A stretch of 33,796 nt of DNA from Ruminococcus sp. (GTDB lineage Bacteria; Bacillota; Clostridia; Oscillospirales; Ruminococcaceae), in contig JAFWSI010000068.1 of the NCBI GenBank assembly GCA_017519415.1, forward strand, positions 1 to 33,796. Direction: 5' to 3'. Positions within the stretch are counted from its first letter, which is position 1, and each line of letters begins with the position of its first letter. This document shows positions 4,074 to 20,291 of this stretch, in pieces. The translations under genes were made by a program, and so were the position numbers. The notes beneath the pieces were generated by a model, which did no database searches, was not told the origin of the DNA, and saw only the letters and a program-made list of their open reading frames with translations.

Positions 4074-4074
4074 A

Positions 4075-4342: not shown

Positions 4343-6055
4343 TCAGATAAATGTGCCGGAAATGTATATCTTCCTGTAAGTTACAAAGCTGAGCCACTTG
4401 CCGAACAAGTCGGGGAGCGAGTCCTTGTCGGAGGCTTCATACTCGGCTATGAACTGCTTGACCTCTGCGTCGTTCCTGGCAAGCACTCCGAAGCCTCTTC
4501 CGTTTACCAGAGGGACCGTGCCGTCGTATTCGTAGCTGTCAAAGCTCAAAAGTGCAGCTACCTTTCTGTTGCGTATCTTCACCGCGACTTTGTCACGAAG
4601 AACGATCACATCAAGATCATCGGGATAGGTATAGCTTTTTCCGTGCGAAGGTATCTCATCACCGATGCCGAAGGTGTGAGTGACAGTCTGTGCGTGGAAA
4701 ACATTATAGCTGTTCACATCATAATAGAACTCCTCAAAAAGATCGCCGCTTGCTTTCAGAACACCGTCTGTAAAGGCGGCTTTGTCCTCGCCGGATACGC
4801 TCTTTTCATACAGCTCCTCGACAACTCCGCAGGCTGCGGTCATATTGCTCACTCTGTCAATAAGGATGAATTCTCCGAGTGTCTTGTGAACAGAAAATCT
4901 GTCCGCAGTCACGGGCTCTGAGAGCTTCACCGTGCATCTTGCTATACCGTTTTTGGATAGCCTGTCCGCAGGGGTATGTTCACCGCTGTTCACATCTACG
5001 GCATACTTTATCTGTGTTACGACTGCCGGTATCAGCTTTGTGCCGAGCTTCACAAGGAAGTCTCTGCCGGGCTCAAGAGGAACGTCATCCGTCCAGAGCA
5101 GCGAAGCATCAAGCGTGCCGTAGGCTGCTATCCCGTCGTCCTTTGTGATAACACAGCCTCTGGACACATCCACCTCGCGGTCAAGAGTGACCGTTACAGG
5201 CTGACCCTTGACGGCAGAATCTGTCTGCCTGTCTCCGACGAAAATACTCTTTACGTTTGCCGTTTCTCCGCTCGGAAGCGTTCTGACGGTATCGCCGGCA
5301 TTAAGGCTCCCCGCCTCGATCTGTCCCTGAAAGCCTCTGAACGTGCGGTCGGGGCGGCATACTCGCTGAACGGGCATATAGAACTTTTCGTCACTGCTGT
5401 CGGCTGCCACATCCACGGTCTCAAGGTATTCAAGCAAGGGCTCGCCCGTGTACCAGGGCATATTGGACGAGCGTTTTGTAACATTGTCTCCGGCTGTTGC
5501 AGAGAGAGGGATGATCTTCACGCTGTCAAGTGAAAGCTCGGAAGCAAGCGCTTCTATCTGTGCGGTGATCTCGGCAAAACGGTTCTCACTGTACTGCACG
5601 AGATCCATTTTATTTACGGCAAACACATAATGCCTTATGCCCATGAGCTTACAGATCCGTGCGTGACGGCGGGTCTGGACAAGCACTCCCTGCGAAGCAT
5701 CCACAAGTATCACGGAAAGATCTGCAAAGGAGGCTCCAACCGCCATATTTCGTGTGTATTCCTCGTGGCCGGGAGTATCTGCAACTATAAAGCTGCGGGC
5801 ATCAGTCGTGAAATATCTGTATGCCACATCTATCGTTATGCCCTGCTCGCGTTCAGCCATAAGGCCGTCAAGCAGCAGCGAATAATCTATCGTACCGCCT
5901 GTGCTGCCCACCTTGCTGTCGAGTTCAAGGGCTTTTTCCTGATCCGTGTAGATCAGCTTTGCGTCATACAGGATATGTCCGATCAGCGTGGATTTGCCGT
6001 CGTCAACACTTCCGCAGGTAATAAATTTCAATAGACCGATCTTTGATTTCTGCAT
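4343..6055 (-). CDS. cysN: Sulfate adenylyltransferase subunit 1 (CysN) with C-terminal extension
   Basis: A 570-aa GTPase subunit of ATP sulfurylase. With CysD it makes APS from sulfate and ATP, driven by GTP hydrolysis. The translation-factor-type G domain is clear: GSVDDGKST (15-23), DTPGHEEY (about 93-100) and NKMD (about 148), followed by two beta-barrel domains up to roughly residue 425. The remaining ~140 residues are an extension not found in the enterobacterial 475-aa protein. It has no P-loop, so it is not a fused APS kinase (CysC). The start codon overlaps the cysD stop by one base. It is the last gene of the sulfate operon and ends just before the terminator at 4301-4337. Confidence 0.93.
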   Translation of the reverse strand: MQKSKIGLLKFITCGSVDDGKSTLIGHILYDAKLIYTDQEKALELDSKVGSTGGTIDYSLLLDGLMAEREQGITIDVAYRYFTTDARSFIVADTPGHEEYTRNMAVGASFADLSVILVDASQGVLVQTRRHARICKLMGIRHYVFAVNKMDLVQYSENRFAEITAQIEALASELSLDSVKIIPLSATAGDNVTKRSSNMPWYTGEPLLEYLETVDVAADSSDEKFYMPVQRVCRPDRTFRGFQGQIEAGSLNAGDTVRTLPSGETANVKSIFVGDRQTDSAVKGQPVTVTLDREVDVSRGCVITKDDGIAAYGTLDASLLWTDDVPLEPGRDFLVKLGTKLIPAVVTQIKYAVDVNSGEHTPADRLSKNGIARCTVKLSEPVTADRFSVHKTLGEFILIDRVSNMTAACGVVEELYEKSVSGEDKAAFTDGVLKASGDLFEEFYYDVNSYNVFHAQTVTHTFGIGDEIPSHGKSYTYPDDLDVIVLRDKVAVKIRNRKVAALLSFDSYEYDGTVPLVNGRGFGVLARNDAEVKQFIAEYEASDKDSLPDLFGKWLSFVTYRKIYISGTFI

Positions 6056-6954
6056 CAGAAATATCCCTCTCTCTTTCTGCGTTCCATACTTCCCGCAGCT
6101 TCGTTGTCGATAACACGCGAGGTGCGTTCGGATTCAACGCTTGCAAGCGTTTCCTCGATTATCTCGTCGATCGTGGAGGCGGTGGACTCTATGCCGCCCG
6201 TCAGCGGATAGCACCCGAGCGTCCTGAATCTGACTGACTTTATCTGCGGCACTTCTCCCTCTCTGAGAGGGAAACGTTCGTCATCCACCATTATGATATT
6301 TCCGTCTCTTTCAACGACAGGACGCTTTGCGGCAAAATACAGCGGAACGATATCTATTTTCTCGCGGCGGATATATTGCCAGATGTCCTTCTCGGTCCAG
6401 TTGGATATGGGAAAGACACGGATGCTCTCGCCCTTGTTTATCTTAGTGTTATAGAGCGTCCACATTTCGGGACGCTGATTTTTCGGGTCCCAGGCATGGG
6501 AAGCGTTGCGGAAGGAGAATATCCTTTCCTTGGCGCGGGATTTTTCCTCGTCGCGCCTTCCTCCGCCGAATGCCGCAGTAAAACCGTACTTGTCAAGCGC
6601 CTGTTTGAGCGCCTGCGTTTTCATTATATCGGTATATGCGGCACCGTGATCGAAGGGATTTATCCCGCGTCTGACGCCGTCCTCGTTGATGTATTCAAGC
6701 ATTTCGATGCCGAGCTTTTTTGCAGTCTCGTCCCGGAACTTTATCATTTCCTTGAACTTCCAGGTCGTATTTACGTGCAGGAACGGAAACGGAGGCTTCT
6801 CGGGATAAAAGGCTTTGAGTGCCAGATGCAGCATGACAGAGCTGTCCTTGCCGATAGAGTAAAGCATTACAGGCTTTTCACATTCAGCCGCTACCTCTCT
6901 GATAATGTATATCGCCTCGGCTTCAAGCTCGTCAAGGTGTGACAATACAGGCAT
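6055..6954 (-). CDS. cysD: Sulfate adenylyltransferase subunit 2 (CysD)
   Basis: The 299-aa catalytic subunit of the CysDN ATP sulfurylase. It belongs to the PP-loop ATP pyrophosphatase fold, with SIGKDSS at residues 33-39. The family-typical [19 protein letters not shown] block (residues about 130-148) and [11 protein letters not shown] follow. Length is normal for CysD (about 300). It lies 11 nt after aprB and overlaps cysN by one base, so the two subunits are translated from adjacent sites. The family also contains PAPS reductase-like PP-loop proteins, but length, motifs and cysN pairing exclude that. Confidence 0.95.
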
Positions 6955-6965
6955 AGTTTCATCTC

Positions 6966-7280
6966 CTAATATTTATTTGATTCGCGGGTATCGACCTCTG
7001 TAACGGTGACGCTCCCGTCGGGCCTTTCGATCATCCATTTCAGAATATCGCCTTCTTTTTCTGTGTGGAGCCTTCCGCCCATACCTCCGATATCTGCTCC
7101 GAGGAAAAAGCTGATCGCATAAACGGGACATTCTTTAAGACAGCTCGTGCAGCCCCAGCAGTCGCGGGGGTATCTGATGAACGCTTTTCCGTCCCTGCCG
7201 AGAGCGATAAGCGTGCCGGGGCATACATCGCGGCATTTTCCGCAGCCGACACATTTCTGACTGTTTATCTCGATGCTCAC
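6966..7280 (-). CDS. aprB: Adenylylsulfate reductase beta-type ferredoxin subunit (AprB-like)
   Basis: A 104-aa protein with two 4Fe-4S clusters. The first set is C10-x2-C13-x2-C16-x3-C20-P; the second is C41-x2-C44-x2-C47-x3-C51-P. The Trp next to the second cluster (DCWGCTSC) is the arrangement seen in AprB, which passes electrons to the flavin of AprA. Dissimilatory AprB proteins are about 150 or more residues with a long tail that wraps around AprA; here only about 50 residues follow the clusters. Start overlaps the aprA stop by four bases, so the pair is coupled. The product is cytoplasmic, and the electron donor is not encoded here. Confidence 0.88.
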
Positions 7281-8932
7281 CCCTTGCTCACGCTCCTTAA
7301 AATGATCTCTGTCCTGCCGTTTTCAAAACGGGAATTCACAAACACATTCCAATGCTCGTCGTCGCGTTCGGGATGATCAGTATTCCCGGCAAAGCCCGCC
7401 CAGCGGGTCTCCTTTCTCGCCCTCAGATGAGCGATCACCGTTTTGCAGACGGTAAGGCGCTCCCGCAGCTCATAGATATACATAAGCTCCTGCGGATCTT
7501 TTGCGCGAAGGCTGTCTGAAAGGCCTTCAAGCTGTATGATGCGTTTTTCGGCTATGCCGAGACTTTTTTCGGAAAAGCGGTAGTTCGTTTTTATGCCGCC
7601 CGCATAGCTGTCCATAACTGTCTGCATAGCTTCTTCAAGCTGTTCTGCCGAATACGGACTGTCGGAGCCGTCAAGGAAACGCTCGGCTTCGCTCAGGTGT
7701 CGTACTGCGCTTTCTTCGCTGATGCCCGCAGGCTTGTTTCCGTCAAGATAACGCAGCATTGCCTGTGCCGCTATCTCACCCTCTGCGAGAGCTCCCGTGA
7801 CATACTTCTGCGGGGCTCCGCCAGCGACATCCCCAGCGGCGTACAGCCCTTGAATAGTGGTGGCGCGGTCGGTATCCACCCAGAAGCCGCTTGCCGTATG
7901 TCCTCCGACGATATAAGGCTCTGTTCCCTCGATCTCAACATTGCTTTTTCCCGGAAGCTCTCCGCTTTCAAGCCATTTGAGGGTCTGCGAGGGAGCCATG
8001 TTCAGGTATGCTTTGAGAAGCGACTGCTCCTGCTGTTCCGATATCCCCTCGGTACGCAGGAAGCAGGGGCCTCTGCCCGCAGAATTTTCGGCAGTCGTGC
8101 CGTACACACGCTCCGAAGTCGTAAGACCGTATTTATGCTCATAGACCTCTCCAAGTGCGTTTATCTGCTTTGCACCGACGCCCTGTGCGAGAGTTCCCGT
8201 GGGCGCTATCGTGTCCTTGCAGCGCAGTGCGATAAAGCGCATCTCGAATGTTGTCATCTCGGCGCCGTGACGTATGCCCATAGCATATCCTGCCCCGGTG
8301 TTGAACGGACAGTACCACATCTTATGCCGTGAAAATCCGGGATTGTTGGGCTTATAAAGTCCTGCCGCGCCACCCGTTGCGATAAGTACGGCAGATGCCT
8401 CGATGATGTAGAACGTTCCGTCATCGATGCCTATCCCGAATGCACCGTTGATCCTATTTCCGGTGACGTCGATGTCCGTGATGTTCACCCGATTGAGTAC
8501 CCTCACATTCGGGTGACGCTGTGCCATTCCCGCAAGCAGAGGCTTGATGTTCTCGCCGTTTATCTTGATGTTTCGGTTTCCTCGTGCGACGTATTTCCCC
8601 TGCTCATCCTTGAGGATGACGAGGCCCTCACGGTCAAGCCTTTCAGTAACTGCGTTCAGACGCTGCGACATTGTCAGCAGAAGATCCTCGCGTGCGATAC
8701 CGTGAGCATCCTTTACGCAGTAATCGACGTAATCCTGCGGCGTCCTTCCCTCTGTGATATACGCATTGAGCGCATTGACTCCTGCGGCAAGACAGCCGCT
8801 CCGCTTTATGTGTGCTTTTTCACAGATAAGTATCTGCTTATCCGAGTTTTCGGCGGCGGTGACAGCCGTATAACAGCCCGCCGTTCCGCCTCCTATGATA
8901 AGGATATCCGTTTTTATTCTTTCAGACTTCAT
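7277..8932 (-). CDS. aprA: Adenylylsulfate reductase alpha-type flavoprotein (AprA-like)
   Basis: A 551-aa FAD protein of the succinate dehydrogenase/fumarate reductase/AprA superfamily. The dinucleotide motif GGGTAGC is at 14-20. A second FAD contact region (LIATGGAAGLYKPN) lies near 190, and GLYAAGDVAGGAPQKYVTGAL near 390. Within this operon the expected reaction is APS reduction to sulfite and AMP, taking electrons from the adjacent ferredoxin subunit. It is clearly shorter than dissimilatory AprA (roughly 620-660 residues). An alternative identity as a fumarate-reductase-like flavoprotein cannot be excluded from motifs alone, but the AprB-type partner and the cysDN and sulfite reductase neighbours make APS reductase far more likely. 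Start and stop both overlap their neighbours by four bases. Confidence 0.88.
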   Translation of the reverse strand: MKSERIKTDILIIGGGTAGCYTAVTAAENSDKQILICEKAHIKRSGCLAAGVNALNAYITEGRTPQDYVDYCVKDAHGIAREDLLLTMSQRLNAVTERLDREGLVILKDEQGKYVARGNRNIKINGENIKPLLAGMAQRHPNVRVLNRVNITDIDVTGNRINGAFGIGIDDGTFYIIEASAVLIATGGAAGLYKPNNPGFSRHKMWYCPFNTGAGYAMGIRHGAEMTTFEMRFIALRCKDTIAPTGTLAQGVGAKQINALGEVYEHKYGLTTSERVYGTTAENSAGRGPCFLRTEGISEQQEQSLLKAYLNMAPSQTLKWLESGELPGKSNVEIEGTEPYIVGGHTASGFWVDTDRATTIQGLYAAGDVAGGAPQKYVTGALAEGEIAAQAMLRYLDGNKPAGISEESAVRHLSEAERFLDGSDSPYSAEQLEEAMQTVMDSYAGGIKTNYRFSEKSLGIAEKRIIQLEGLSDSLRAKDPQELMYIYELRERLTVCKTVIAHLRARKETRWAGFAGNTDHPERDDEHWNVFVNSRFENGRTEIILRSVSKG

Positions 8933-9789
8933 TTGTTGATCGCCTCAAGTATAACCTTATCGAACTCCTCGCGCCCTACTCTGTCAAGAGTAAAGCGGAA
9001 GCGTTCACTCGGCTTGGCATTTGCCTCAAAGAAACCGATAGCTGCATCGCAGACACGCAGCAGAGCATCGTGATCCTCGATAAAAGGCACGGTCGGCTCA
9101 CCCTTGGCGATACTGTTGCCGAAAAGCCCTCCGAAAGACACGATATATCCGCTGACCGTATCCCATGCATCGGTCGGGCAGACCTTGACGCATCTGCCGC
9201 AGTAATTGCATTTTTTGTTATCTACTGTGATCCTGCCGTTTTCTCTGCTTATCGCTTTGCTCCGGCAGATCTTCTCGCAGAGCCCGCAGTTTATGCAGTC
9301 GCTTTCTTTCCAGCTGACTTTCAGTCCGCCCTTTATGCCGAGGTCGTTTTCCTCTGCTTTGAGGCAGTTGTTCTGACATCCCGTGATGCCGAACTTGAAC
9401 TTGTGCGGCAGCTCTCTTGCAAAGTAGCGCTCGTCAAGCTCCTTAGCCAGCGCGTAAGTATCAATGCATCCGCTGGGACAGATCGCATTTCCCTGGCAGG
9501 CGGTAATGGTCCTTACCCTCGGTCCGCAGACACCGGGCTCGACGCCGCCTTCTGCAAGCGCATCCTTTACCTCGTCGATCTTATCGAGCTTGATGAACGG
9601 TATCTCGATGCTCTGCCGGGAGGTCAGATGCACATGACCGTCACCGTATTTCTCGGACACCTCCGCGATCTTTGCGAGCTGTCCCGCCGTGACATTTCCC
9701 CCGACGATACGAAGTCTGAGAGAGAAATTGTTTTTCTGCTTCTGCTGCATGAAGCCGCCTTTTTTTAAAGTCGAGTAATCCGCTGCCAT
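8929..9789 (-). CDS. Compact siroheme/4Fe-4S sulfite reductase (AsrC-like)
   Basis: A 286-aa redox enzyme expected to reduce sulfite to sulfide with six electrons. The N-terminal half (residues about 22-90) has the nitrite/sulfite reductase ferredoxin-like fold with HLTSRQSIEIP. The siroheme-cluster motif is complete: C98-x5-C104 and C138-x3-C142. Two ferredoxin-type clusters follow: C165/C168/C171/C175 and C194/C197/C200/C204. This order matches AsrC of anaerobic sulfite reductase, but no asrA or asrB is present. I start at ATG 9789 (MAADYSTL) behind AAGGAGAATTGAA; the longer ORF runs into hemL. It begins one base after the hemL stop, linking siroheme supply to the enzyme that uses it. Confidence 0.9.
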   Translation of the reverse strand: MAADYSTLKKGGFMQQKQKNNFSLRLRIVGGNVTAGQLAKIAEVSEKYGDGHVHLTSRQSIEIPFIKLDKIDEVKDALAEGGVEPGVCGPRVRTITACQGNAICPSGCIDTYALAKELDERYFARELPHKFKFGITGCQNNCLKAEENDLGIKGGLKVSWKESDCINCGLCEKICRSKAISRENGRITVDNKKCNYCGRCVKVCPTDAWDTVSGYIVSFGGLFGNSIAKGEPTVPFIEDHDALLRVCDAAIGFFEANAKPSERFRFTLDRVGREEFDKVILEAINK

Positions 9790-9790
9790 T

Positions 9791-11062
9791 TCAATTCTCC
9801 TTCGGTTTATAGTTTTCAATGATCTGCGCCGTGAGTGCGATATCCTGGTCGCTGTGAGCATAGGATATGAACATCGCCTCGAACTGTGAGGGTGCTGTGT
9901 AGATGCCGTTTTTCAGCAGATAACGGAAATAATCTGCATAAGCCCCTCTGTCAGCAGTCTGTGCCGACTCGTAGTCTGTGACCTTGTTATCGGTGAAAAA
10001 CACCGTCATCAGCGAGCCGCACCTGTTCACGTTCAGCCCCGCTTTCTTGGCGGCATTTTCCAGCACAGCCGCCTTTCGGTCAAGGGCTTCATAGAGGTCT
10101 GGGGTCTGCTCGAGCTGAGTTATCTGAGCTATGCCCGCAGCCGTCGCTATGGGGTTGCCCGAGAGCGTTCCTGCCTGATAAACTGCCCCCAGGGGAGCGA
10201 TCTGCTCCATTATCTCACGCCACCCGCCGTAGGCTGCAAGAGGCATACCGCCTCCTACTATCTTCCCGAGAACCGTCAGGTCGGGGGTGATGCCGTAATA
10301 CTGCTGTGCGCCGCCTATTGAAAGCCTGAACCCTGTTATGACCTCGTCGAAGATCAGCAGCGCACCGTACTGCGAGGTTATCTCCCGAAGCTCTCCGAGA
10401 AAGCCGTCCCCTGGAGTGACTACTCCCATGTTCGCGGCGCAGGGCTCGACTATAACAGCGGCGATGCTGTCGGGGGATCTCTCAAACAGCTCCCGCACCG
10501 AGTCGGCATTGTTGTACCTTGCGGAGAGTGTGTTGTCGGTGAAGCCCGAGGGCACTCCCGCGCTGTCGGGTATGGAATCCGTCAGCAGTCCCGAGCCGCT
10601 CTTGACCAGCAGTCCGTCGGAATGGCCGTGATAGCAGCCGTCGAATTTGATGATCCTGCTGCGCTTTGTAAAGCCCCTTGCGGCGCGGACTGCGCTCATG
10701 ACCGCCTCGGTGCCGGAGCTGACAAGGCGGATAAGCTCCATAGAGGGGAAGTGCGCCTTGATTTTCTCAGCAAGGATGATCTCCCCCTCGTGACAGGCTC
10801 CGAAGGTAAGACCCCGCTCACAGGCTTTTGTGACCGCTCCGATAACAGCGGGATGTGCGTGCCCGAGAATATCGGGTCCCCAGGAGCAGACGTAGTCGAT
10901 GTATTCATTTCCGTCGGCGTCGGTTATCCTGTCGCCCTGCGCCTTCGAGATAAAAAGCGGCTCTGCGCCCACGCTCCCGAAAGCCCTGACAGGGCTGTTC
11001 ACGCCTCCCGGCATCAGCCCCAGGGCTTTTTTGAACAGCGCCGATGATCTTTGTGTGTTCAT
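9791..11062 (-). CDS. hemL: Glutamate-1-semialdehyde 2,1-aminomutase
   Basis: A 423-aa PLP enzyme of aminotransferase class III that converts glutamate-1-semialdehyde to 5-aminolevulinate, the second step of the C5 tetrapyrrole pathway. Family blocks are intact: [12 protein letters not shown] at the N-terminus, [45 protein letters not shown], and the PLP-lysine region [17 protein letters not shown] at about residue 260. Length is normal. The start overlaps the hemB stop by four bases, and its stop is one base before the sulfite reductase start. Its position in the sulfate operon indicates dedication to siroheme. Confidence 0.96.
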
Positions 11063-12030
11063 GTTTCCTCCAGCCAGCGTACTGCATCAAGGGCGTGGTA
11101 GGTTATGATGATATCCGCTCCTGCACGCTTTATCGCAGTAAGATTTTCAAGTACTATCCGCCTCTCGTCTATCCAGCCCTTTGCCGCCGCAGCCTTGACC
11201 ATGCTGTATTCCCCGCTGACATTGTAGGCGGCGAGGGGCAGATCAAAACGCTGCTTTGCGCGGCTGATAATATCAAGATAGGCAAGGGCGGGCTTTACCA
11301 TAACGATATCCGCGCCCTCATCAATGTCGTCCGCCACCTCACGGAGAGCCTCATTCCCGTTTGAAGGCTCCATCTGATAGGTGCGTCTGTCCCCGAAGGA
11401 GGGCGCTGAATGTGCGGCGTCCCGGAAGGGCGAATAGTATCCCGAGGCGAACTTGGCGCTGTATGACATTATGGGCGTGTTGATATGCCCCGCCCCGTCA
11501 AGAGCCTCCCTTATGGCTGCGACCCGCCCGTCCATCATATCCGAGGGGGCGATGATATCCGCACCCGCACTGGCAAGGCTGACGGACATTTTCGCAAGCA
11601 GGGGCAGCGTTTCGTCGTTTTGTATCTCGCCCTCATGCACCAGTCCGCAATGCCCGTGAGAGGTGTACTCGCAGAGACAAACATCTGCGATAACAAGTAT
11701 TTTGGGATAGTTCTCCTTGATGAAACGAACCGCCCGCTGAGTTATCCCTTCGTCATTGTATGCCTCGCTGCCGACCTCGTCCTTGTGCTTTGGTATGCCG
11801 AACAACAGCACACCCCCTATCCCGCTTTCACGCACACGGTCAAGCTCCTCGTCCAGCCTGTCGAGAGACCACTGATATATCCCCGGCATAGACTCCACCG
11901 GGTTCTTGATATTCTCCCCCTCGGCAATGAATATGGGGTATATCAGAGAGCTTTTGTCCACTCTCGTTTCACGCACCAGCGATCTCAGATTTTCAGTCGA
12001 TCTGAGCCGTCTGAATCTTTTCATTTTCAA
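11059..12030 (-). CDS. hemB: Porphobilinogen synthase
   Basis: A 323-aa 5-aminolevulinate dehydratase that condenses two ALA molecules into porphobilinogen. The zinc-site cysteines are seen in [14 protein letters not shown]. The two active-site lysines are in [16 protein letters not shown] and in [10 protein letters not shown]. Length fits the family. It overlaps cobA-hemD upstream and hemL downstream by four bases each, in the middle of the tetrapyrrole block. The zinc-type Cys triad distinguishes it from the Mg-dependent form. Confidence 0.96.
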
Positions 12031-13466
12031 TTTCTCCTGTCATTTATTATCGAATCAAGTATGCCCTGTGCTGTCTGCTGTCCGGCGGTGAGGATCCTGC
12101 TGCCGAAATGCTTTGATGCCGTATCTGCGGTCTTTGAGCCGATGCAGACCACGGCTGTGTTTTCAGATATGCTGCTGCCGTTTTCAAAGAAACTGCGCAC
12201 TCCGAAAGAGCTGCCGAAAACCACATAGTCAGTATCGAAATGTATAGGCGGCAGCCCGCGGCTCACGGTGTCGTATATCTTCACGTCATCGTAAGCAACG
12301 CCCTTTCTTTCAAGTATCTCCCCAAGCTCGTCGGAGCCCAGGGCAGCCCGGAGTATCAGCACTCTGCCGACCCCCTCCGAGGCGAGCTTTTCAGCCAGGT
12401 CTTTGACATAAAAGCTCTCCGGGATGATATCTGGTATCAGACCGAAGGAGGAAAGAGCCTCGGCTGTCCCGCTGCCGACTGCGGCGATCTTCACTCCCGC
12501 AAGGGAGCGCAGGTCTATACGGTTTTCCCTGCAATGGTCGATGAACATTTCCGCACCGTAAGAGCTTGTAAAGGCGATACAGTCATAGCCTTCAAGTGCC
12601 GGGATAACGCCCTTTCTCACCGTCTGAACATGGGGGTATCTCTGCACCCCCGCTCCGTTTTTTTCGAGCAGCGAAGAAGTCTTCCCAACAAATTTTCCGC
12701 TGCCCGTCACGGTGACTGAAACGCCGTCCAAAGCGCCTTTTGAGATGCCGCACGAAAAGTCAAAGGCCGCTGCCTCCCCGACGACTATCACCGCAGGAGC
12801 GGTAAGCCCGGCTTTTTCGGCAGCGTCCGCAATATCTGCCAGGGCAGCCCGGACAGTCCGCTGCTTGGCGGTGCCGCCCTCGGAAATGACCGCCGCAGGG
12901 GTGAAGTTTCTTCTTTCTCCCCGGATGAGCCCCTCCGCGATCTCCCGAAGCGCCGCATATCCCATGAGGAACACGAGAGTTCCGTCAAGAGCTGCATACT
13001 TGGTAAAATCCCGGGAGCCCTCCGCCGTGTGCGCGGTTATAACGTGGAATGCGCGGCTCACGTTCCTGTGGGTCACTGGTATGCCCGCTAGTTCGGGAAC
13101 AGCCACCGAGGATGAGATCCCCGGCACGACCTCAAAAGCTATGCCCTGTTTTTTCAGCTCTGCGATCTCCTCGCCGCCCCGCCCGAATACAAAGGGGTCT
13201 CCGCCCTTGAGCCTTGCGACTGTGCGGCCTTCAAGGGCTTTTCGGGCGATCAGAGAATTGATATCCTCCTGCGAAGCGCTGTGTTTTCCCGAGCGTTTCC
13301 CGACGCAGATCAGTTCCGCATTTTCATCTGCATATCCGAGCAGAGCGGGGTCGATAAGCGCGTCGTAGATCACCGCATCGCATTTTTTCAGCGCATTCAG
13401 TCCGCGAACGGTCATAAGGTCATAGGCTCCGCAGCCCGCACCGATGATGTAAACATACCCGCTCAT
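12027..13466 (-). CDS. cobA-hemD: Uroporphyrinogen-III C-methyltransferase / uroporphyrinogen-III synthase fusion
   Basis: A 479-aa bifunctional protein. Residues 1 to about 245 are SAM-dependent uroporphyrinogen-III methyltransferase (SUMT): [18 protein letters not shown] at the N-terminus, then [17 protein letters not shown] and [22 protein letters not shown]. Residues about 246-479 are the two-lobed HemD fold, with TSSYGAEMF and VLILRA and a late [12 protein letters not shown]. Together the two domains make precorrin-2 from hydroxymethylbilane. CobA-HemD fusions are known in Clostridia. It overlaps hemC and hemB by four bases each. SUMT directs flux to siroheme or corrinoids; no later cobalamin genes are in the window. 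Confidence 0.95.
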
Positions 13467-14314
13467 AGCTCTGAGACCAGCCTTTTCACAAGCTCAAAAC
13501 GCTCCTCTGCGGGGGCGCTGTCGGTCAGAATGGCGTGCTGATCCTTTGTGACGGTAAGGGTCATGATGCCGTCCTTTATCTCTGCCAGCGCCCCCACAGG
13601 GGATGAACAGCCAGCGTTCAGCAGCTCCAGCACAGCCCGCTCGGTCTCGAAGCATTTATAGGTGTCGCTGTCATTTACGCCCGACAGCAGTTCTGCGATA
13701 TCGTCCCTGCCCGACTGGATCGCGATTATCCCCTGACAGGGCGCAGGAACGAGAGACTTCGTGGAAATAAACGTGTAATCGAACCGCTTGTCCCCCAGCG
13801 CACCGAGCCTTGAAAGCCCCGCCGCCGCAAGGATGATACCGTCATACTGTCCCTCCGCCAGCTTGTTCAGGCGGGTATCGACGTTTCCTCTGATATCGAC
13901 TGTCTTTGTGTAGGGGAACAGCTTTTTTACTCCGTCGGCGCGGCGTGTGCTGCTCGTTCCGATGACGCTGCCTTTAAGCACTTCGTTTCGCCTTGTGACC
14001 AGCACATCGTTGGGGAAGGAGCGCCTGAGCACCGCACTTATCCGAGTACCCTCCGCAAGCTCCAGAGGCAGGTCTTTTGCGCTGTGAACTGCAATATCTA
14101 TCTCACCGCTTTGGAGCGCCTGCTCTATCTCGGAGATGAACACGCCCTTGCCCCCCAGCTTTTCCAGAGGCTTGTCAAGTATCACATCGCCCTTTGTGGT
14201 ATAGTATATCAGCTCGGTCTCCGCATCGGGATAAGCCTGTTTTATCGCATCAGCCGCAAGCTCCGACTGTATCAGCGCCAGCTTGCTTTTGCGCGTCCCT
14301 ATCCTGACTTTCAT
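13463..14314 (-). CDS. hemC: Hydroxymethylbilane synthase (porphobilinogen deaminase)
   Basis: A 283-aa enzyme that polymerises four porphobilinogens. Family marks: the RIGTRKSKLALIQSE N-terminus, GGKGVFISEIEQAL, HSAKDLP with the catalytic Asp, STRRADGVKK, and the dipyrromethane-cofactor cysteine in NAGCSSPVGA. It is somewhat shorter than the usual ~310 residues, mainly in the C-terminal domain. The start at 14314 is fixed by the conserved N-terminus, so the gene overlaps sirC by 65 nt in another frame, an unusually long overlap for this operon. The ribosome site, AAAGGATAAGAGATAACT, lies inside the end of sirC. Confidence 0.94.
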   Translation of the reverse strand: MKVRIGTRKSKLALIQSELAADAIKQAYPDAETELIYYTTKGDVILDKPLEKLGGKGVFISEIEQALQSGEIDIAVHSAKDLPLELAEGTRISAVLRRSFPNDVLVTRRNEVLKGSVIGTSSTRRADGVKKLFPYTKTVDIRGNVDTRLNKLAEGQYDGIILAAAGLSRLGALGDKRFDYTFISTKSLVPAPCQGIIAIQSGRDDIAELLSGVNDSDTYKCFETERAVLELLNAGCSSPVGALAEIKDGIMTLTVTKDQHAILTDSAPAEERFELVKRLVSEL

Positions 14315-14930
14315 AGTTATCTCTTATCCTTTCAAGACTTGAAGTTGTATCAAAATCACCGGCGTCATCACATTCGTAAAACAGCCTTATCAGCTCCGCT
14401 GCTGCCTGCGCACGCCGACTGTCCGTTTTGAACAGCCGGTGTATTTCCGGCCTTGCGGATGCGAGAGCCTCAAAGAGCCGCATCTCTTTTTCATCGAGAA
14501 GCTCCTCTATCTGTTTGCGCAGATGCTTTGCATAAGCGGGAGCGTTCCCGCCGGTGTTTATGCTGACGGTGACGCCGTCCTTATTCACAAGTGCGGGAAA
14601 GATGAACCCGCAGTTTTCGGGATCGTCCACCGTGTTCACGAGTAACTTGTTCTGCTCCTTGCACAGGCGGTAGATACGGGAGTTGAGCTCCCTGTCGTCC
14701 GTGGCTGCGATAACCGCAAATGCGCCTTCAAGATCGCTGTCCTCGAATCTCCGGTGTATCAGCGTTATGCCGAAAAGCTTATCAAATTCGCTGTCTGTCT
14801 CAGGTGCTACGACTTTGAGCTTCGCTCCGAATGGCATGAGCTTTTCGGCTTTCCTGAGTGCGACCTTCCCGCCGCCCGCTATCAGGACAGTCCTGCCTGC
14901 AAGGTCGATGCAGAAGGGAAAATATGCCAC
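14250..14930 (-). CDS. sirC: Precorrin-2 dehydrogenase (SirC/Met8p-type)
   Basis: A 226-aa NAD-dependent enzyme that oxidises precorrin-2 to sirohydrochlorin. The Rossmann motif AGGGKVALRKAEKL is at residues 18-31. The conserved VNTVDDPENCGF block with candidate catalytic Asp is near 95, and SINTGGNAPAYAKHLR follows. No separate sirohydrochlorin ferrochelatase (SirB) is in the operon, so this protein may also insert iron, as yeast Met8p does; that is inference. The start lies two bases after the hemA stop. The C-terminal ~25 residues overlap hemC and may be dispensable. Confidence 0.9.
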   Translation of the reverse strand: MAYFPFCIDLAGRTVLIAGGGKVALRKAEKLMPFGAKLKVVAPETDSEFDKLFGITLIHRRFEDSDLEGAFAVIAATDDRELNSRIYRLCKEQNKLLVNTVDDPENCGFIFPALVNKDGVTVSINTGGNAPAYAKHLRKQIEELLDEKEMRLFEALASARPEIHRLFKTDSRRAQAAAELIRLFYECDDAGDFDTTSSLERIRDNYESQDRDAQKQAGADTVGACG

Positions 14931-14932
14931 CT

Positions 14933-16030
14933 TTATTCCTCCAGTTTTCCGATGATGTCAAGCACAGCCGAGAACTGCTCGCTGTTGAGCCCGTCCCGGA
15001 GCTTGTAAAGCAGCTTTTCAAAGGTGAGCTTTCCTGCGGCGCGTTTGGCCTCTGCCAGCCCCGGCAGGAACCGGCTGAAGGTGAGCTTTTTCAGCAGCTC
15101 GTCAAGCTCCTCCTCGATAATGGATTCCGCCTGCTCCGCTGCCGACATTTTCAGCTCGCAGCCCCGCTGTGCAGCTGCACCGATGTCGTCGATATCAATG
15201 AGCCTTACCCCGTCAAGCTCAGATACACCCCGCTCTATATCGTGGGGAACGGCAAGGTCTATCAGCAGCCGGGGCTTGCGGGTGTGCAGGGCTTCTCTCA
15301 GCCGCTTTGCAGTGAGAGTAAAATGGGGGCTGGAGGTGGAGCTTATTATGCAGTCCGCTTCGTCGGCGTATTTGTATCTGTCATCGTAAGCCACCGTCCT
15401 GACGTTCTTCCGGTCAAGGGCTACCCCCGAATGGGAGCGGGATGTACGGGTTATATGCACATTCGGATGGCAGAGCAGATTTTTCAGCGTGGATGAGCCT
15501 ATCTTCCCCGATGAACCTATCATCAGGATGTTCACGGCTTCGCCCGAGCCTGTGGCTTCATTGGCTGCAACTGTGGCTGCCGAAGCGGGAGTTTTTGAAA
15601 GTGCAGTCTCGGTCTTGACCCTCTTTGCCGCCGTGACAGCCGCCTGAAATACGGTGTTGAGCTCGGTGCTTGTAGTGCCGTCCTCTGCGGCTTCGGAGTA
15701 TGCCTCCTTGACCTGCCGCAGTATCTCGTCCTCGCCGATTATCATTGAGTCCAGCCCGCTTGCCACCCGGAACAGATGCCTCACAGCACCGTTTCCCTCG
15801 TAGGAATAAACCAGCTCTGCAGTATCCTCAACTCCCGACAGCTTAGACAGCAGAGCTGCCGCCCTGTCGGGGTCGCTGTCCGAAAAGAACAGCTCCGTCC
15901 GGTTGCAGGTGCAAAGCACGACTGAGCTTCCCAGAGCATGACGCAGCTTTGAACGCTTCTCCTTATCGAAGGCAAACCGCTCACGCACCGAGGCGTCGGC
16001 TTTTCGGTAATTTATACTCAGGCACAGCAT
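14933..16030 (-). CDS. hemA: Glutamyl-tRNA reductase
   Basis: A 365-aa first enzyme of the C5 pathway; it reduces glutamyl-tRNA(Glu) to glutamate-1-semialdehyde. The catalytic cysteine C42 is in LCTCNRTE. The substrate block SGLDSMIIGEDEILRQVK follows, and the NADPH-binding MIGSSGKIGSSTLKNL is near 170. The C-terminal dimerisation helix region is present but short, so the protein is about 50 residues below the usual ~415. The start is three bases after the cysA stop, so tetrapyrrole synthesis is joined directly to sulfate import. Confidence 0.94.
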   Translation of the reverse strand: MLCLSINYRKADASVRERFAFDKEKRSKLRHALGSSVVLCTCNRTELFFSDSDPDRAAALLSKLSGVEDTAELVYSYEGNGAVRHLFRVASGLDSMIIGEDEILRQVKEAYSEAAEDGTTSTELNTVFQAAVTAAKRVKTETALSKTPASAATVAANEATGSGEAVNILMIGSSGKIGSSTLKNLLCHPNVHITRTSRSHSGVALDRKNVRTVAYDDRYKYADEADCIISSTSSPHFTLTAKRLREALHTRKPRLLIDLAVPHDIERGVSELDGVRLIDIDDIGAAAQRGCELKMSAAEQAESIIEEELDELLKKLTFSRFLPGLAEAKRAAGKLTFEKLLYKLRDGLNSEQFSAVLDIIGKLEE

Positions 16031-16033
16031 GAT

Positions 16034-17092
16034 TCAGATGACCACGGTCTCTTCGCGGACAGCGTTGTTTTTCAGAAGTGTGACGGTATTGCCCTGAGTT
16101 ATGAAGATGCGGAAGATAAATACATCCACTTTCTCGCCGATCTCGACAGCGGGCTCATCGAGGCCGCGTCTTGCGCTGAACCTGCTGTTGTTGCAGTCCA
16201 CAGTGAGCTCAAAGCTGTTGCCTCTGAACTGCAGGTCTGTGACCGTACCTTCCACCGCAGATCTCTTGTATTTCTGCTGCTCGTTCTTCTTTGTGATCTT
16301 TACGAACTCCGGCCTGATGATCGCCTTGTCATATTCGCCAATGTCGTCAAAGTTCTCAAAAGCCTTGTAGTCGGTCAGCTCCGAGGTCGCCCCGAAGAAG
16401 GACGAGGTGAATGCAGTCGTAGGATTGATATAGATCTCCGCCGGAGTGCCTGTCTGCTCGATGCGGCCCTGATTGGTAACGATTATCTCGTCGGAGACCT
16501 CTATCGCTTCGTCCTGGTCGTGAGTTACGAAAATACCCGTCACTCCCAGCTGATGTATCATATCTCTCAGCCACTTGCGAAGCTCGGAACGCACCTTGGC
16601 GTCTATCGCCGCAAAGGGCTCATCGAGGAGAAGCACCTGCGGATTGGGCGCAAGGGCCCTTGCAAATGCCACTCTCTGGCGCTGACCTCCCGAAAGCTGA
16701 GAGGGGTAACGCTTCTCGAAGCCCTCGAGCCCGATGAGCTTTATCAGCTCGGTGACACGCTCTTTGATCTCTTTTTTGTTCTGCTTGCGGACGGTCAGTC
16801 CGAAGGCTATGTTGTCATACACCGTCATATAACGAAACAGCGCATAGCTCTGGAAAACGAAGCCGATCCCGCGTTCGCTTGCGGGAACATTGTTGACGAC
16901 TTTTCCGTCAATGATTATCTCGCCGCTGTCGGGTCTTTCAAGCCCTGCTATCATACGCAGGATAGTCGTCTTTCCGCTTCCGGAAGGACCCAGCAGAGCC
17001 ACCAGCTTGCCCTTTTCTATCCCGAATCCCACATTGTCCGAGGCTTTGAAGCTGCCGTAGGATTTATTTATGTTTTTCAGTTCGATATACAT
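16034..17092 (-). CDS. cysA: Sulfate/thiosulfate ABC transporter ATPase
   Basis: The 352-aa ATPase of the sulfate importer. Walker A is GPSGSGKT (35-42), the signature LSGGQRQRVAFARAL is near 135, Walker B is LLLDEPFAAID near 158, and the switch His is in VTHDQDEA. Residues about 235-352 are the C-terminal regulatory/TOBE-like region, which contains FRGNSFELTV. It overlaps the cysW stop by one base. A role in molybdate import was considered, but two distinct permease genes and the APS pathway downstream indicate sulfate. Confidence 0.94.
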   Translation of the reverse strand: MYIELKNINKSYGSFKASDNVGFGIEKGKLVALLGPSGSGKTTILRMIAGLERPDSGEIIIDGKVVNNVPASERGIGFVFQSYALFRYMTVYDNIAFGLTVRKQNKKEIKERVTELIKLIGLEGFEKRYPSQLSGGQRQRVAFARALAPNPQVLLLDEPFAAIDAKVRSELRKWLRDMIHQLGVTGIFVTHDQDEAIEVSDEIIVTNQGRIEQTGTPAEIYINPTTAFTSSFFGATSELTDYKAFENFDDIGEYDKAIIRPEFVKITKKNEQQKYKRSAVEGTVTDLQFRGNSFELTVDCNNSRFSARRGLDEPAVEIGEKVDVFIFRIFITQGNTVTLLKNNAVREETVVI

Positions 17093-17970
17093 TATTCTTC
17101 ACCTTTTCGTCTGCCGATAAATTCGACAATGCTTCTGACTATCAGTATCACGACAGCCATTATCATAAGAATAGAGGACACTGCAAATGCAGGCATATAC
17201 TTGTTATCGCCGAACAGTATCTCTACCTGGAGCGGGAGTGTTACGGTCTGACCTCTCAGATGTCCGGAAAGTACCGAGACCGCTCCGAATTCACCCATTG
17301 CACGGGCAGCGCAGAGTACGATGCCGTAGATCAGAGCCCACTTGATATGAGGAAGTGTGATCTTTCTGAATATCGTGAAGCTGCGTGCTCCCATAAGCGC
17401 AGCAGCCTCTTCTTCATCGGTACCCTGTGCCTCAAGGACGGGTAGTATCTCTCTCGAAATGAACGGGAACGTCACGAACACCGTAGCAAGGATGATACCC
17501 GGCACCGCATAAACTATCATAAAATCTATCTCTTCGAGATAGGAATAGAGAAAGCTTTGTCTTCCGAAAGTGAGAACAAAGATAAGTCCGGCGATTATCG
17601 GAGATACGGTTACGGGAAGGTCGATAAGCGTAACAAGGAACTTTTTGCCCCTGAATCTGAACTTGGAGATCGCCCACGCCGCAAACAATCCGAACACGGT
17701 GTTTATGATCACAGCGATGACCGTTGCTTCAAGTGTCAGAAGCAAGGCACCGACAGTCTCATCATCAGTGACAGCTTTCAGATATTCACCGAAGCCCTTT
17801 CGGAAAGACTCATATATAACGGTGATAAGGGGCATAACAAGCATAATGAACAGGAACAGCACGCTCAGCGTAATAAGAATGATCCTGACCGCCTTTGAGC
17901 CTTTGGTATCGGCATGGATCTCCGTGCTGCCCTCGCGAGGCATTACACGTTCGGTCTTTTCGGCTGCCAT
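17092..17970 (-). CDS. cysW: Sulfate ABC transporter permease CysW
   Basis: A 292-aa inner-membrane permease with six predicted spans, beginning after a charged ~28-residue N-terminus. The binding-protein-dependent transport motif reads EEEAAALMGARSFTIFRKITLPHIKWALIYG at about 195-225; this EAA loop contacts CysA. The ending GEFGAVSVLSGHLRGQTVTLPL is typical of CysW. It starts one base after the cysT stop and overlaps cysA by one base. Confidence 0.93.
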   Translation of the reverse strand: MAAEKTERVMPREGSTEIHADTKGSKAVRIILITLSVLFLFIMLVMPLITVIYESFRKGFGEYLKAVTDDETVGALLLTLEATVIAVIINTVFGLFAAWAISKFRFRGKKFLVTLIDLPVTVSPIIAGLIFVLTFGRQSFLYSYLEEIDFMIVYAVPGIILATVFVTFPFISREILPVLEAQGTDEEEAAALMGARSFTIFRKITLPHIKWALIYGIVLCAARAMGEFGAVSVLSGHLRGQTVTLPLQVEILFGDNKYMPAFAVSSILMIMAVVILIVRSIVEFIGRRKGEE

Positions 17971-17971
17971 T

Positions 17972-18802
17972 TCAGTTTCCCCCTTTCAGTATCTTTGTGT
18001 TGCGTATCTGTATCAGGTTCACAAGAAACAGGATGATAAACGCAGCCAGCAGCATAACAAGAGCTATCGCGGTCGCGCTGGAATAATCGTATTCCTGAAG
18101 CTCCGACATTATTATCAGAGGAGTGATCTCGGTCTCGTAGGGCTGATTTCCTGCGATGAACACAACGCTGCCGTATTCACCGAGACATCTTCCGAAGGCA
18201 AGCCCGAAGCCCGTGAATATCGCCGGATAAAGCTCGGGAAGTATCACCTTGCGAAATGTTCTGGCTCTGCTTGCACCGAGTATGCCTGCGGCTTCTTCGT
18301 ACAATGGGTCTATCTTCTCAAGCACGGGCTGAACGGCGCGTACAACGAACGGTATGCCTATGAATATCAGGGCTATCGTGATCCCGACGCGAGTATAAGC
18401 GATCTTTATTCCGAATTTTGCGAAAATGCTCCCTATCCAGCCCGAATCGGAATAGAGAGATGTGAGTGCTATTCCAGCGACTGCCGTGGGCAGAGCAAAC
18501 GGAAGCTCTATCATGCCGTCAAGGATGCGCTTGCCGGGGAATTTGTACCTCACCAGCACCCAGGCAAGTATCACGCCCATAACGGCGTTTATAAGCGATG
18601 CTATCAGCGCAGTTATCAGGCTGACGCGAAAACTCGCCAGAACACGGGGGCGTGTAATGACGTTCCATATCTCCGAAAAGCTCATTTTTGAAGTGAATAC
18701 CACCAGAGACGCAAGAGGAATGAGCACCATCAGACTCAGAAGTGTAAGCGTAACTCCCATAGATATGCCGAATCCCGGGATGATCCTTTTCTTTCTTTTC
18801 AT
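17972..18802 (-). CDS. cysT: Sulfate ABC transporter permease CysT
   Basis: A 276-aa inner-membrane permease, partner of CysW. About six spans are visible. The EAA loop is EEAAGILGASRARTFRKVILPEL (about 185-207), followed by GRCLGEYGSVVFIAGNQPYETEITPLI, a sequence typical of CysT. The short N-terminus (MKRKKRIIPGFG) is positively charged. A 77-nt gap with a stem-loop separates it from sbp, the largest gap in the operon. Confidence 0.93.
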   Translation of the reverse strand: MKRKKRIIPGFGISMGVTLTLLSLMVLIPLASLVVFTSKMSFSEIWNVITRPRVLASFRVSLITALIASLINAVMGVILAWVLVRYKFPGKRILDGMIELPFALPTAVAGIALTSLYSDSGWIGSIFAKFGIKIAYTRVGITIALIFIGIPFVVRAVQPVLEKIDPLYEEAAGILGASRARTFRKVILPELYPAIFTGFGLAFGRCLGEYGSVVFIAGNQPYETEITPLIIMSELQEYDYSSATAIALVMLLAAFIILFLVNLIQIRNTKILKGGN

Positions 18803-18824
18803 ACAAACACCTTTTTATAGTATT

Positions 18825-18850
18825 TATCCCCGCCGGGAGGGACGGGGATA
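18825..18850 (-). other. Intercistronic stem-loop between sbp and cysT
   Basis: TATCCCCG (18825-18832) and CGGGGATA (18843-18850) form an 8-bp GC-rich stem with a 10-nt loop. No T-run follows on the minus strand, so it is not a clear terminator. A partial attenuator, or a 3' end that protects the sbp message so that binding protein is made in excess, is the usual meaning of such a hairpin. This is inference. Confidence 0.5.
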
Positions 18851-18879
18851 TACTTTTTCAGCGAGATATATTTCCTGTA

Positions 18880-19911
18880 TCAATCCTGTTTATAGATCTG
18901 GTCGAAGAGACCGCCGTCTGCAAAATGTTTCTTGAAGGCTTCGTCCCAGCCGCCGAAATCGTTGATGGTAACAAGGTTGATCTTAAGATCAAAGGTGTCG
19001 GCGAACTCGGCAAGGATCTTCTCGTTTGAAGGACGGTAGAAGTTCTTTCCTGCGATCCTCTGAGCTTCCTCGGAGTAGAGATAGTTGAGATACTCGGTAG
19101 CTACCTCGCGGGTGCCGTTCTTGTCTACCACCTTATCTACAACTGCAACGGAGGGCTGTGCAAGGATGCTTATGCTCGGTGTAACGATCTCATAATCGTT
19201 GGGGTATTCCTTGAGGGAGAGGAATGCTTCGTTCTCCCAAGCAAGAAGGACATCGCCCTGCTTGTTCTCAACGAAGGAGTTGGTAGCTCCTCTTGCGCCG
19301 GAATCAAGCACCAGCACATTTCCGTAGAGCTTCTTGATGTAGTCGATTATCTTGCTCTCGTCGTTATTGTATTCCCTCTGCGCCCATGCCCAGGCAGCGA
19401 GATGGTTCCAACGCGCACCGCCCGAGGTCTTGGGATTGGGAGTGATAACGCCCACGCCGTCTCTTGCAAGGTCGCCCCAGTCCTTGATGTTCTTGGGATT
19501 TCCCTTGCGTACAAGGAATACGATAGTCGAAGTGTAGGGCGAGGAGTCCAGCTGGAACTCGTTTACCCAGCCTTCATCTATAAGTCCGGCGTCCTGAACA
19601 GCCTTTACATCGTATTCAAGTGCGAGAGTTACTACGTCTGCGGGGTTGCCGTTGGCGACCTCAAGTGCCTGCTTGCCCGAACCGCCGTGAGACTGGTTTA
19701 TCTCCACCTTGGAATCGTGTTCAGCTTCCCAGTGCTTCTTGAATGCCTCGTTGTACTCGGCGTAAAGCTCTCTTGTGGGGTCATAAGAAACATTGACTAT
19801 GGAATAGCTCTTTGTATCGGCGCCCTCTGCCTTTGCGCAGGAGGCCGCAGTTACCATAGCTGTTACAAGTGCGAGTGAAAGTGCCGTTAATCTTAAAAAT
19901 CTGCTTTTCAT
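18880..19911 (-). CDS. sbp: Sulfate-binding lipoprotein of ABC transporter
   Basis: A 343-aa extracellular binding protein. The signal peptide ends in a lipobox, with the lipid-bearing cysteine at C25 (VTAASCAK). The mature part carries Sbp/CysP family blocks: VSYDPTRELYAEYNEAF, NQSHGGSGKQALEVANG and NPKTSGGARWNHLAAWAWA. These motifs line the sulfate site in the known family. The start follows TGAGGTATTCAAT. It is the first full-length gene of the sulfate operon and is preceded by a 14-codon leader ORF. Gram-positive anchoring by lipid replaces the free periplasmic form of enterics. Confidence 0.95.
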   Translation of the reverse strand: MKSRFLRLTALSLALVTAMVTAASCAKAEGADTKSYSIVNVSYDPTRELYAEYNEAFKKHWEAEHDSKVEINQSHGGSGKQALEVANGNPADVVTLALEYDVKAVQDAGLIDEGWVNEFQLDSSPYTSTIVFLVRKGNPKNIKDWGDLARDGVGVITPNPKTSGGARWNHLAAWAWAQREYNNDESKIIDYIKKLYGNVLVLDSGARGATNSFVENKQGDVLLAWENEAFLSLKEYPNDYEIVTPSISILAQPSVAVVDKVVDKNGTREVATEYLNYLYSEEAQRIAGKNFYRPSNEKILAEFADTFDLKINLVTINDFGGWDEAFKKHFADGGLFDQIYKQD

Positions 19912-19965
19912 ATTGAATACCTCATTTCAGTTTCTTTGATTATTTGCTTTTTTCGGAATGCGTAT

Positions 19966-20010
19966 TCAACAGCGTATTACTCCTCCTGCGGCATTGAAAT
20001 TCTTTTTCAT
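19966..20010 (-). CDS. Leader peptide ORF upstream of sbp (14 aa)
   Basis: A 14-codon ORF reading MKKNFNAAGGVIRC, with a very good ribosome site (AAGGTGATCTT) directly before the ATG. It lies 54 nt upstream of sbp and within the predicted transcript. The last sense codon is Cys, before TGA. Its ribosome site can be masked by the upstream ATCACC (see 20014-20051). A regulatory leader sensing cysteine or translation is a reasonable guess. It has only one Cys codon, so classic attenuation by a Cys run is not shown. Confidence 0.5.
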   Translation of the reverse strand: MKKNFNAAGGVIRC

Positions 20011-20013
20011 AAG

Positions 20014-20051
20014 ATCACCTTTCCTTACCGGAGCTGTCTGCTGCCGGTGAT
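20014..20051 (-). promoter_or_regulatory. Candidate switch-like RNA masking the leader ribosome site
   Basis: On the minus strand ATCACCGG...GCTCCGGT...GGTGAT allows two mutually exclusive stems that share the bases ACC. In one, ACCGG pairs with CCGGT (plus positions 20044-20048 with 20027-20031), leaving the ribosome site free. In the other, ATCACC (20046-20051) pairs with GGTGAT (20014-20019), which is the ribosome site of the leader peptide. No match to a riboswitch class I know. Confidence 0.35.
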
Positions 20052-20077
20052 AATCTTTCTTTGGTTGGTATGCTGAT

Positions 20078-20106
20078 ATTATAGCCCATAATACTTTCGC
20101 TGTCCA
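20078..20106 (-). promoter_or_regulatory. Promoter of the sulfate assimilation operon
   Basis: On the minus strand a -35 box TGGACA (20101-20106), a 17-nt spacer and a -10 box TATAAT (20078-20083). The predicted start near 20071 leaves about 160 nt of leader before sbp. A further ATAG-type repeat lies at 20127-20147, about 66 bp upstream of the start, where a LysR-family activator would sit. Confidence 0.7.
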
Positions 20107-20202
20107 ATACGCTTTTTTGAGAGCAGGCTATAAAAAATGTCTATATCCCGAGAAAATTTACAATTACATCTCAAAATAATATAGAAACATTTGGATAAAA
20201 TA

Positions 20203-20236
20203 ATATATAATCATAGTTAGTCCATAGATTATATAT
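20203..20236. promoter_or_regulatory. Inverted repeat with sulfur-regulon operator, copy 2
   Basis: ATATATAATC (20203-20212) and GATTATATAT (20227-20236) are a perfect 10-bp inverted repeat around a 14-nt core that carries the CATAG...CATAG repeat shared with 2342-2362. It lies 55 bp before the LysR start codon and about 130-160 bp upstream of the sulfate operon start. A possible -10 box for lysR (TATAAT, 20206-20211) falls inside the left arm, which would allow self-repression. Confidence 0.6.
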
Positions 20237-20291
20237 GAAATTCATACGGTATAGGGCTAAAATAATAACAATTATTTTTCAAGGTGATACA

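Follow-up and report, generated by a model that had tools for sequence, protein, structure and literature searches.

A Ruminococcus gene run for sulfate assimilation that probably makes its own siroheme

Introduction

Why should the genes for making a tetrapyrrole, from glutamyl-tRNA onwards, lie between those of a sulfate importer and that of a sulfite reductase? This question is raised by a 33,796-nucleotide stretch of Ruminococcus sp. DNA (GCA_017519415.1, contig JAFWSI010000068.1; hereafter the window), which is contig C74 of an assembly of 2.48 Mb in 75 contigs that is 74.9% complete. A preliminary description, made from the letters of the window, had read fifteen of its genes as a complete sulfate-to-sulfide operon with built-in siroheme synthesis. 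Comparison of these genes with profile libraries, with related loci and with 125 genomes of the genus leads us to conclude that the run is most probably one assimilatory sulfate-to-sulfide operon that makes its own siroheme.

Gene content and compactness of the run

The list of open reading frames (ORFs) of the window contains all fifteen genes, on the minus strand at 4343-19911 and in the order sbp-cysT-cysW-cysA-hemA-sirC-hemC-cobA/hemD-hemB-hemL-sulfite reductase-aprA-aprB-cysD-cysN. Thirteen of them pass the curated NCBIfam cut-off for the named function; the two without such a pass, the sulfite reductase gene and aprB, are both over Pfam domain cut-offs. The importer is encoded by sbp for the sulfate-binding protein (18880..19911; TIGR00971, 408 bits, cut-off 156), the sulfate permease genes cysT (17972..18802; TIGR02139, 390 bits, cut-off 246) and cysW (17092..17970; TIGR02140, 336 bits, cut-off 329) and cysA for the transporter ATPase (16034..17092; TIGR00968, 357 bits, cut-off 343). 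They are followed by the tetrapyrrole genes, that is hemA, encoding a glutamyl-tRNA reductase of 365 amino acids (aa) (14933..16030; TIGR01035, 228 bits, cut-off 210), sirC for a precorrin-2 dehydrogenase (14250..14930; TIGR01470, 148 bits, cut-off 62), hemC for hydroxymethylbilane synthase (13463..14314; TIGR00212, 275 bits, cut-off 164), a cobA-hemD fusion for uroporphyrinogen-III methyltransferase/synthase (12027..13466; TIGR01469, 278 bits, cut-off 185; Pfam HEM4, 139 bits, cut-off 27.5), hemB for porphobilinogen synthase, with a TTG start (11059..12030; NF006762, 510 bits, cut-off 297), and hemL for glutamate-1-semialdehyde aminomutase (9791..11062; TIGR00713, 568 bits, cut-off 527). The run continues with asr, encoding a small sulfite reductase of the siroheme/4Fe-4S type with an inserted ferredoxin domain (8929..9789; Pfam NIR_SIR and NIR_SIR_ferr over cut-off), an aprA-like gene for the FAD-type alpha subunit of an assimilatory APS/PAPS (adenosine phosphosulfate/phosphoadenosine phosphosulfate) reductase (7277..8932; NF005331, 902 bits, cut-off 557) and an aprB-like gene for a 104-aa ferredoxin beta subunit (6966..7280; best PDB match 8a8o_C, 93 bits), and it ends with cysD and cysN for the small subunit (6055..6954; TIGR02039, 490 bits, cut-off 397) and the GTPase subunit of sulfate adenylyltransferase (4343..6055; TIGR02034, 531 bits, cut-off 336, match up to residue 412). 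ORF list and profile names hence agree with the preliminary description on the fifteen genes and their single strand.

The description had also stated that nearly all junctions overlap or lie within 12 nt, which fits 13 of the 14: these overlap or leave at most 11 nt, the exception being sbp-cysT with 77 nt. Gaps measure 1 nt at cysT-cysW, 3 at cysA-hemA, 2 at hemA-sirC and 11 at aprB-cysD. Overlaps of 1 nt occur at cysW-cysA and cysD-cysN and of 4 nt at hemC-cobA/hemD, cobA/hemD-hemB, hemB-hemL, asr-aprA and aprA-aprB; large ones are found at sirC-hemC (65 nt) and, with the ORF start as listed, at hemL-asr (71 nt). The sulfite reductase probably starts at 9789 rather than with the ORF opening at 9861, because alignments with close relatives from the genus begin at residue 12-22 or further in and AAGGAG stands ahead of the ATG at 9789; with this start, hemL and asr are separated by 1 nt.

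Spacing and conservation, which form the basis here, suggest that the fifteen genes are co-transcribed. The best promoter-like site, identified by an 11/12 consensus match only, is located at 20106-20078 on the minus strand, in the intergenic region 19912..20234 upstream of sbp. Terminator-like sites gave no signal between 3900 and 20600 (18 vs 15.5 in shuffles), and scans of the window returned no tRNA and no Rfam family at gathering score, that is, no known riboswitch or T-box.

The tetrapyrrole genes and their product

HemA, HemL, HemB, HemC, CobA/HemD and SirC would lead from glutamyl-tRNA to sirohydrochlorin and thereby supply the cofactor of the reductase, in a cell whose assembly gave no second HemB or HemC. 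Both core steps towards siroheme, uroporphyrinogen-III methyltransferase (TIGR01469) and precorrin-2 dehydrogenase (TIGR01470), score over cut-off. Second copies of hemB and hemC had been named as a check: a profile search of the assembly, confined to these two and not extended to other hemA, hemL or hemD copies, returned a single HemB and a single HemC, both inside the run. A separate ferrochelatase gene (SirB) is absent from the run, the CbiX/CbiK search outside it having covered contig C19 only. SirC is of the CysG N-terminal/Met8 type: its PDB matches are CysG (77 bits), SirC 3dfz (68) and Met8 (54), and its D102 aligns with D104 of CysG, a residue with a catalytic role. Given these alignments, SirC might possibly also act as ferrochelatase and insert the iron. 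HemA matches only GlutR_N and Shikimate_DH in Pfam and has no recognised C-terminal dimerisation domain, and the C-terminal domain of HemC (13463-14314) is only partly matched by Pfam.

As to what this supply feeds, protoheme made elsewhere in the genome is a very unlikely destination. Late heme genes could be missing from an assembly that is 75% complete, but in a PF01208 search of the own genome, to which this search was limited, HemE was not found, the only match being the MetE gene, below cut-off. PF17805, the family that we take to hold the siroheme decarboxylases (AhbA/B), is represented in none of the 125 genus genomes, the own one included (HemH, AhbC and AhbD were not searched for), and 115 of the 125 gave no HemB match either. 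That the run itself holds no hemE, hemH or later heme gene, as had been described, is in line with the names given to the window ORFs scanned. The absence of hemE alone does not show dedication to siroheme, because sirohydrochlorin is the precursor of both siroheme and corrin, and a corrin cluster, out of view for the preliminary description, is present on contig C19 of the same assembly.

This cluster comprises CbiD, CbiF, CbiG, CbiH, CbiJ, CbiET, CbiC and CbiK, to which domains and gene positions add CbiP, CobT, CobU, CobS, CobC, CbiB, CobD and CbiA. It raises the alternative that the hem genes feed siroheme and cobalamin alike and that the sulfate run is merely where they ended up. CbiD is found in 7 of the 10 genus genomes with HemB and CbiL over cut-off in 4 of the 10, as this would have it; against it, no CbiL over cut-off was found in the own assembly (G000; PF00590 and TIGR01467, 75% complete), the same holds for G012 and G028, two further carriers of the fused run that are 96% and 100% complete, respectively, and no CbiD was found in the HemB genomes G095 and G030, or in G005, which does have a CbiL fragment. 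Moreover, HemB tracks Asr/AprA rather than CbiD, and by visual inspection CbiK has a lipoprotein-type signal. A shared supply is accordingly unlikely in our estimate. Dedication to siroheme, as inferred originally, is favoured by the CbiL results, the CbiK signal and the genus-wide HemB pattern, and siroheme would be the main product.

The genus-wide pattern is as follows. All 10 genomes with HemB have an Asr- or AprA-type match, compared with 2 of the 115 without HemB (Fisher p 4e-13, in a test that counts related genomes as independent and that was run both with and without G105). These two are G098 and G105. In the latter, AprA and Asr lie on one 3,979-base contig (G105:C23; L090, same as L113) that sits in another species bin and is 99.95% identical to the window; it is probably misbinned, because the corrin cluster of G105 aligns with that of the window genome at 73% over ~3.3 kb. 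HemB shows no link with CbiD, which is present in 7/10 genomes with and 70/115 without HemB (p 0.74), or with CbiL (4/10 and 31/115, respectively). A complete cofactor pathway would then be linked to the single enzyme family that appears to require siroheme, in a genus mostly without HemB, and whether siroheme alone makes gut bacteria retain tetrapyrrole synthesis becomes a testable question.

Several observations weigh against a siroheme-making operon of this kind. Besides the corrin cluster on C19, there is the incompleteness of the assembly (74.9% complete), from which a hemE, cbiL or further hemB could be absent. The hem genes may also feed B12 in G029, G016, G132 and G137, which have CbiL over cut-off, and in G005, where a CbiL fragment lies at a contig edge. 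The Fisher test ignores kinship; G098 has sulfate genes and no HemB was found in it; G016 has AprA, with no Asr found, and in G030 and G137 the only reductase candidate is an Asr-like protein of 36-37% identity, which in G030 is below cut-off and scores about equally on the AsrC and DsrB models. Finally, promoter-like sites on both strands of 3900-20600 number 24, vs 11.1 in shuffles (standard deviation 3.5), counts that are not interpretable apart from the 11/12 site upstream of sbp; since they exceed the shuffles, internal promoters are possible.

Conservation of the arrangement in relatives

A search of a one-genome-per-species collection with the sulfite reductase of the window yielded 67 loci. 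They constitute a non-random sample from Ruminococcus and other Oscillospiraceae, unnamed Clostridia, some Lachnospiraceae and two Spirochaetaceae, mostly metagenome-assembled genomes; some duplicate stretches with G handles, and many end at contig edges, so that counts are lower bounds. The identical fifteen-gene order is complete in at least nine of the 67 loci, which answers the neighbourhood check that had been proposed and shows that the arrangement is not due to chance. At least 32 loci have two or more hem genes, hemL adjoins the reductase gene directly or via metY in at least 25, and metY was found in at least 46. Within the genus, the fused run recurs in G012, G028 and G095 and on two contigs of G005; in G029, G030 and G132 the contig with the hem genes is a different one from that with the reductase gene or aprA, while in G016 and G137 the hem genes are on small contigs. 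In R. bicirculans 80/3, the ~8 kb to each side of the reductase cluster gave no hem gene, nor did the stretches of R. callidus and Anaerobutyricum hallii, which are shorter than that one; L143, a neighbour of A. hallii in the AprA tree, has some hem genes.

In this tree, which is rooted at the midpoint only, the compact form makes up a single clade (support 100/99), whose 12 rows include the window and L113, which is identical to it. Its sister group (93/85) combines the fused order with metY, tusA and trx, and with thiF and JAB genes where the contig extends there. The run of the window, which is without these additions, would be a slimmed version of a larger, extended form. In the extended clusters (e.g. 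L036:12439-17204), metY, tusA, thioredoxin, thiF and a JAB-type gene surround the reductase gene and resemble a protein-thiocarboxylate route to homocysteine or cysteine; a protein-thiocarboxylate pathway to methionine is known as the Wolinella type.

The route from sulfate to sulfide

The run unites the parts of an assimilatory route, namely sulfate importer, ATP sulfurylase, P/APS reductase and sulfite reductase, which supports the original reading of a sulfate-to-sulfide run with built-in siroheme synthesis, as an assimilatory one. Sulfate imported by SbpCysTWA would be converted by CysDN to APS; sulfite would be formed from APS (or PAPS) by the AprAB-like enzyme and turned into sulfide by the small sulfite reductase with its siroheme.

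Respiratory, that is dissimilatory, sulfate reduction instead of assimilation is extremely improbable. An AprAB-type reductase takes the place of CysH, and the sulfite reductase has domains in common with Dsr, as one would expect of such a system, but all the dissimilatory models remain far below cut-off (AprA, TIGR02061, 327 bits vs 642; AprB, TIGR02060, 53 vs 136; DsrA, TIGR02064, 74 vs 393; DsrB, TIGR02066, 81 vs 342). None of the window ORFs scanned received the name of a Qmo, Dsr membrane or Sat protein, a sulfate ABC importer is part of the run, and metE/metF adjoin it. The sulfite reductase likewise scores 158 bits on the AsrC model (TIGR02912) vs a cut-off of 324, and no asrA or asrB was named in the run.

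The label 'AprAB' used originally should be read with caution: the nearest relative is the PAPS reductase of Methanothermococcus thermolithotrophicus (MtPAPSR). AprA scores 592 bits to 8a8o_A vs 290 to Archaeoglobus fulgidus AprA, AprB has the same length of 104 aa as its methanogen counterpart 8a8o_C, and AprAB is, as judged from sequence, closer to the methanogen PAPS reductase than to dissimilatory APS reductase. The closest solved relatives by sequence are in fact MtPAPSR (8a8o) and, for the sulfite reductase, the F420-dependent sulfite reductase (7np8, 7npa), whose C-terminal half matches with 126 bits and whose other half is missing here. In the structural work (PMC10322725), Lys120, Arg121 and Ser122 of MtPAPSR are proposed as PAPS determinants, and Gln145 of A. 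fulgidus would, in its authors' view, clash with PAPS. These residues are only partly kept in the window AprA, which has N119, R120 and N121 at the equivalents of 120-122 and Asn at the position of Gln145. Across 45 AprA stretches, some of them duplicates, the motif reads RGNRN in 35, RGDRN in four, RGKRN in four, RGSRN in one and RGKWN in one, which means that the Arg121 equivalent is kept in 44.

The AprAB-like enzyme might therefore be a PAPS reductase, with an APS kinase elsewhere completing the pathway, an option that is compatible with an assimilatory operon and that we take seriously without favouring it. The bit scores, the AprB length, the retained arginine, the Asn in place of the clashing glutamine and the APS kinase gene in the operon of Clostridium acetobutylicum (PMC4845359) all point this way, but Lys120 and Ser122 are replaced, and a scan of 78 loci with an APS kinase motif revealed no APS-kinase-like ORF (the own genome was not searched for cysC). 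The substrate leans to APS because no such ORF turned up in the loci scanned.

CysN ends in an extension of ~150 aa (4343-4819) that is conserved in relatives (24-row alignment); Pfam gave no match for it at E<=1, and the PDB a single one, at E 0.65. The look of the Anaerobutyricum extension had suggested a degenerate APS kinase, for which the Pfam search gave no support. The Lachnospiraceae relatives L143 and L156 have a different CysN extension.

Relation to known systems

Siroheme genes within a sulfate-assimilation operon are known from the Bacillus subtilis cysH operon with sirA, sirB and sirC, which covers only the steps after uroporphyrinogen III and uses CysH, Sat and CysC. Similar clostridial sulfur operons are already known as well. 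According to two reports (PMC3828012, PMC4845359), C. acetobutylicum CA_C0102-CA_C0110 unites APS reductase A, ferredoxin, a sulfate ABC transporter, CysD and CysN in one operon, as here, and its genes shift expression together; unlike the run in the window, that operon includes APS kinase, O-acetylhomoserine sulfhydrylase and a predicted CymR site. The hem genes, too, have a clostridial precedent. HemA, HemC, HemB and HemL of C. saccharobutylicum bear the near-consecutive accessions AGX44136, 44134, 44132 and 44131 (the HemD accession is misprinted) in a published survey (PMC6461909), which suggests that the order seen here is the clostridial hemA-sirC-hemC-hemD-hemB-hemL order; in the window this block is placed inside a sulfate run. 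Among the titles listed by a literature search on siroheme genes in clostridial or Ruminococcus sulfate-assimilation operons, none names this arrangement. What the window adds is a pathway that starts from glutamyl-tRNA within a single compact run, and the genus comparison adds the link of HemB to sulfate/sulfite reduction genes.

Corrin genes without HemB

CbiD occurs in 77 of the 125 genus genomes, 70 of which gave no HemB match, and in 42 of the 77 no CbiL over cut-off was found, near-complete assemblies such as G035 included. How do relatives with B12 ring genes but no HemB obtain the precursor? The corrin stretch was fetched for eight genomes and ended before CbiK in four of them (G071, G010, G012, G028). 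In the others, G000, G029, G035 and G105, a lipoprotein-type signal was recognised by eye in CbiK, along with a linker rich in Ser, Thr and Glu. The CbiK stretches are L058:383-3791 and L065:12241-13998, both minus strand, from contig C19 of G000, as well as L100, L198 and L091. In G000, the protein after CbiK has a weak NEAT match (21.6 bits, cut-off 32.8); the next three score over Pfam cut-offs as a periplasmic binding protein, a FecCD permease and an ABC ATPase. The best NCBIfam model for the ATPase, below cut-off, is a corrinoid transporter. NEAT domains bind heme in other Gram-positives, and this neighbourhood suggests cobalt insertion and tetrapyrrole capture outside the cell.

It is conceivable, if rather doubtful, that the lineage lost tetrapyrrole synthesis except for a siroheme module kept or gained with sulfate reduction, and that its B12 ring pathway runs, instead of on this module, on scavenged tetrapyrroles, which the NEAT-like protein and lipoprotein CbiK would capture and supply with cobalt at the surface prior to FecCD-type ABC import. 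Tetrapyrrole-precursor salvagers are a described category, mostly of Firmicutes (PMC6461909), and a literature search listed no direct account of such an uptake of tetrapyrroles. CbiD without HemB in 70 genomes, together with a lipoprotein CbiK, may matter more than the operon itself.

Flanking genes

Upstream of the run, a LysR-type regulator is encoded divergently (20235..21209, plus strand; Pfam HTH_1 and LysR_substrate over cut-off), and its position makes it a candidate regulator of the run. Beyond it lie metF, metE and then a second LysR gene. Further on, the minus strand of window positions 26728-33536 encodes an ECF sigma factor, an ABC ATPase and a protein with a weak ABC-2 permease match below cut-off, along with several products that reach no family cut-off. 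At its 3' end, the run is flanked by a gene for a Rhodanese-TusA-DsrE2 fusion protein on the plus strand (window 2440-3465), and such a protein is located near the run in L114, too.

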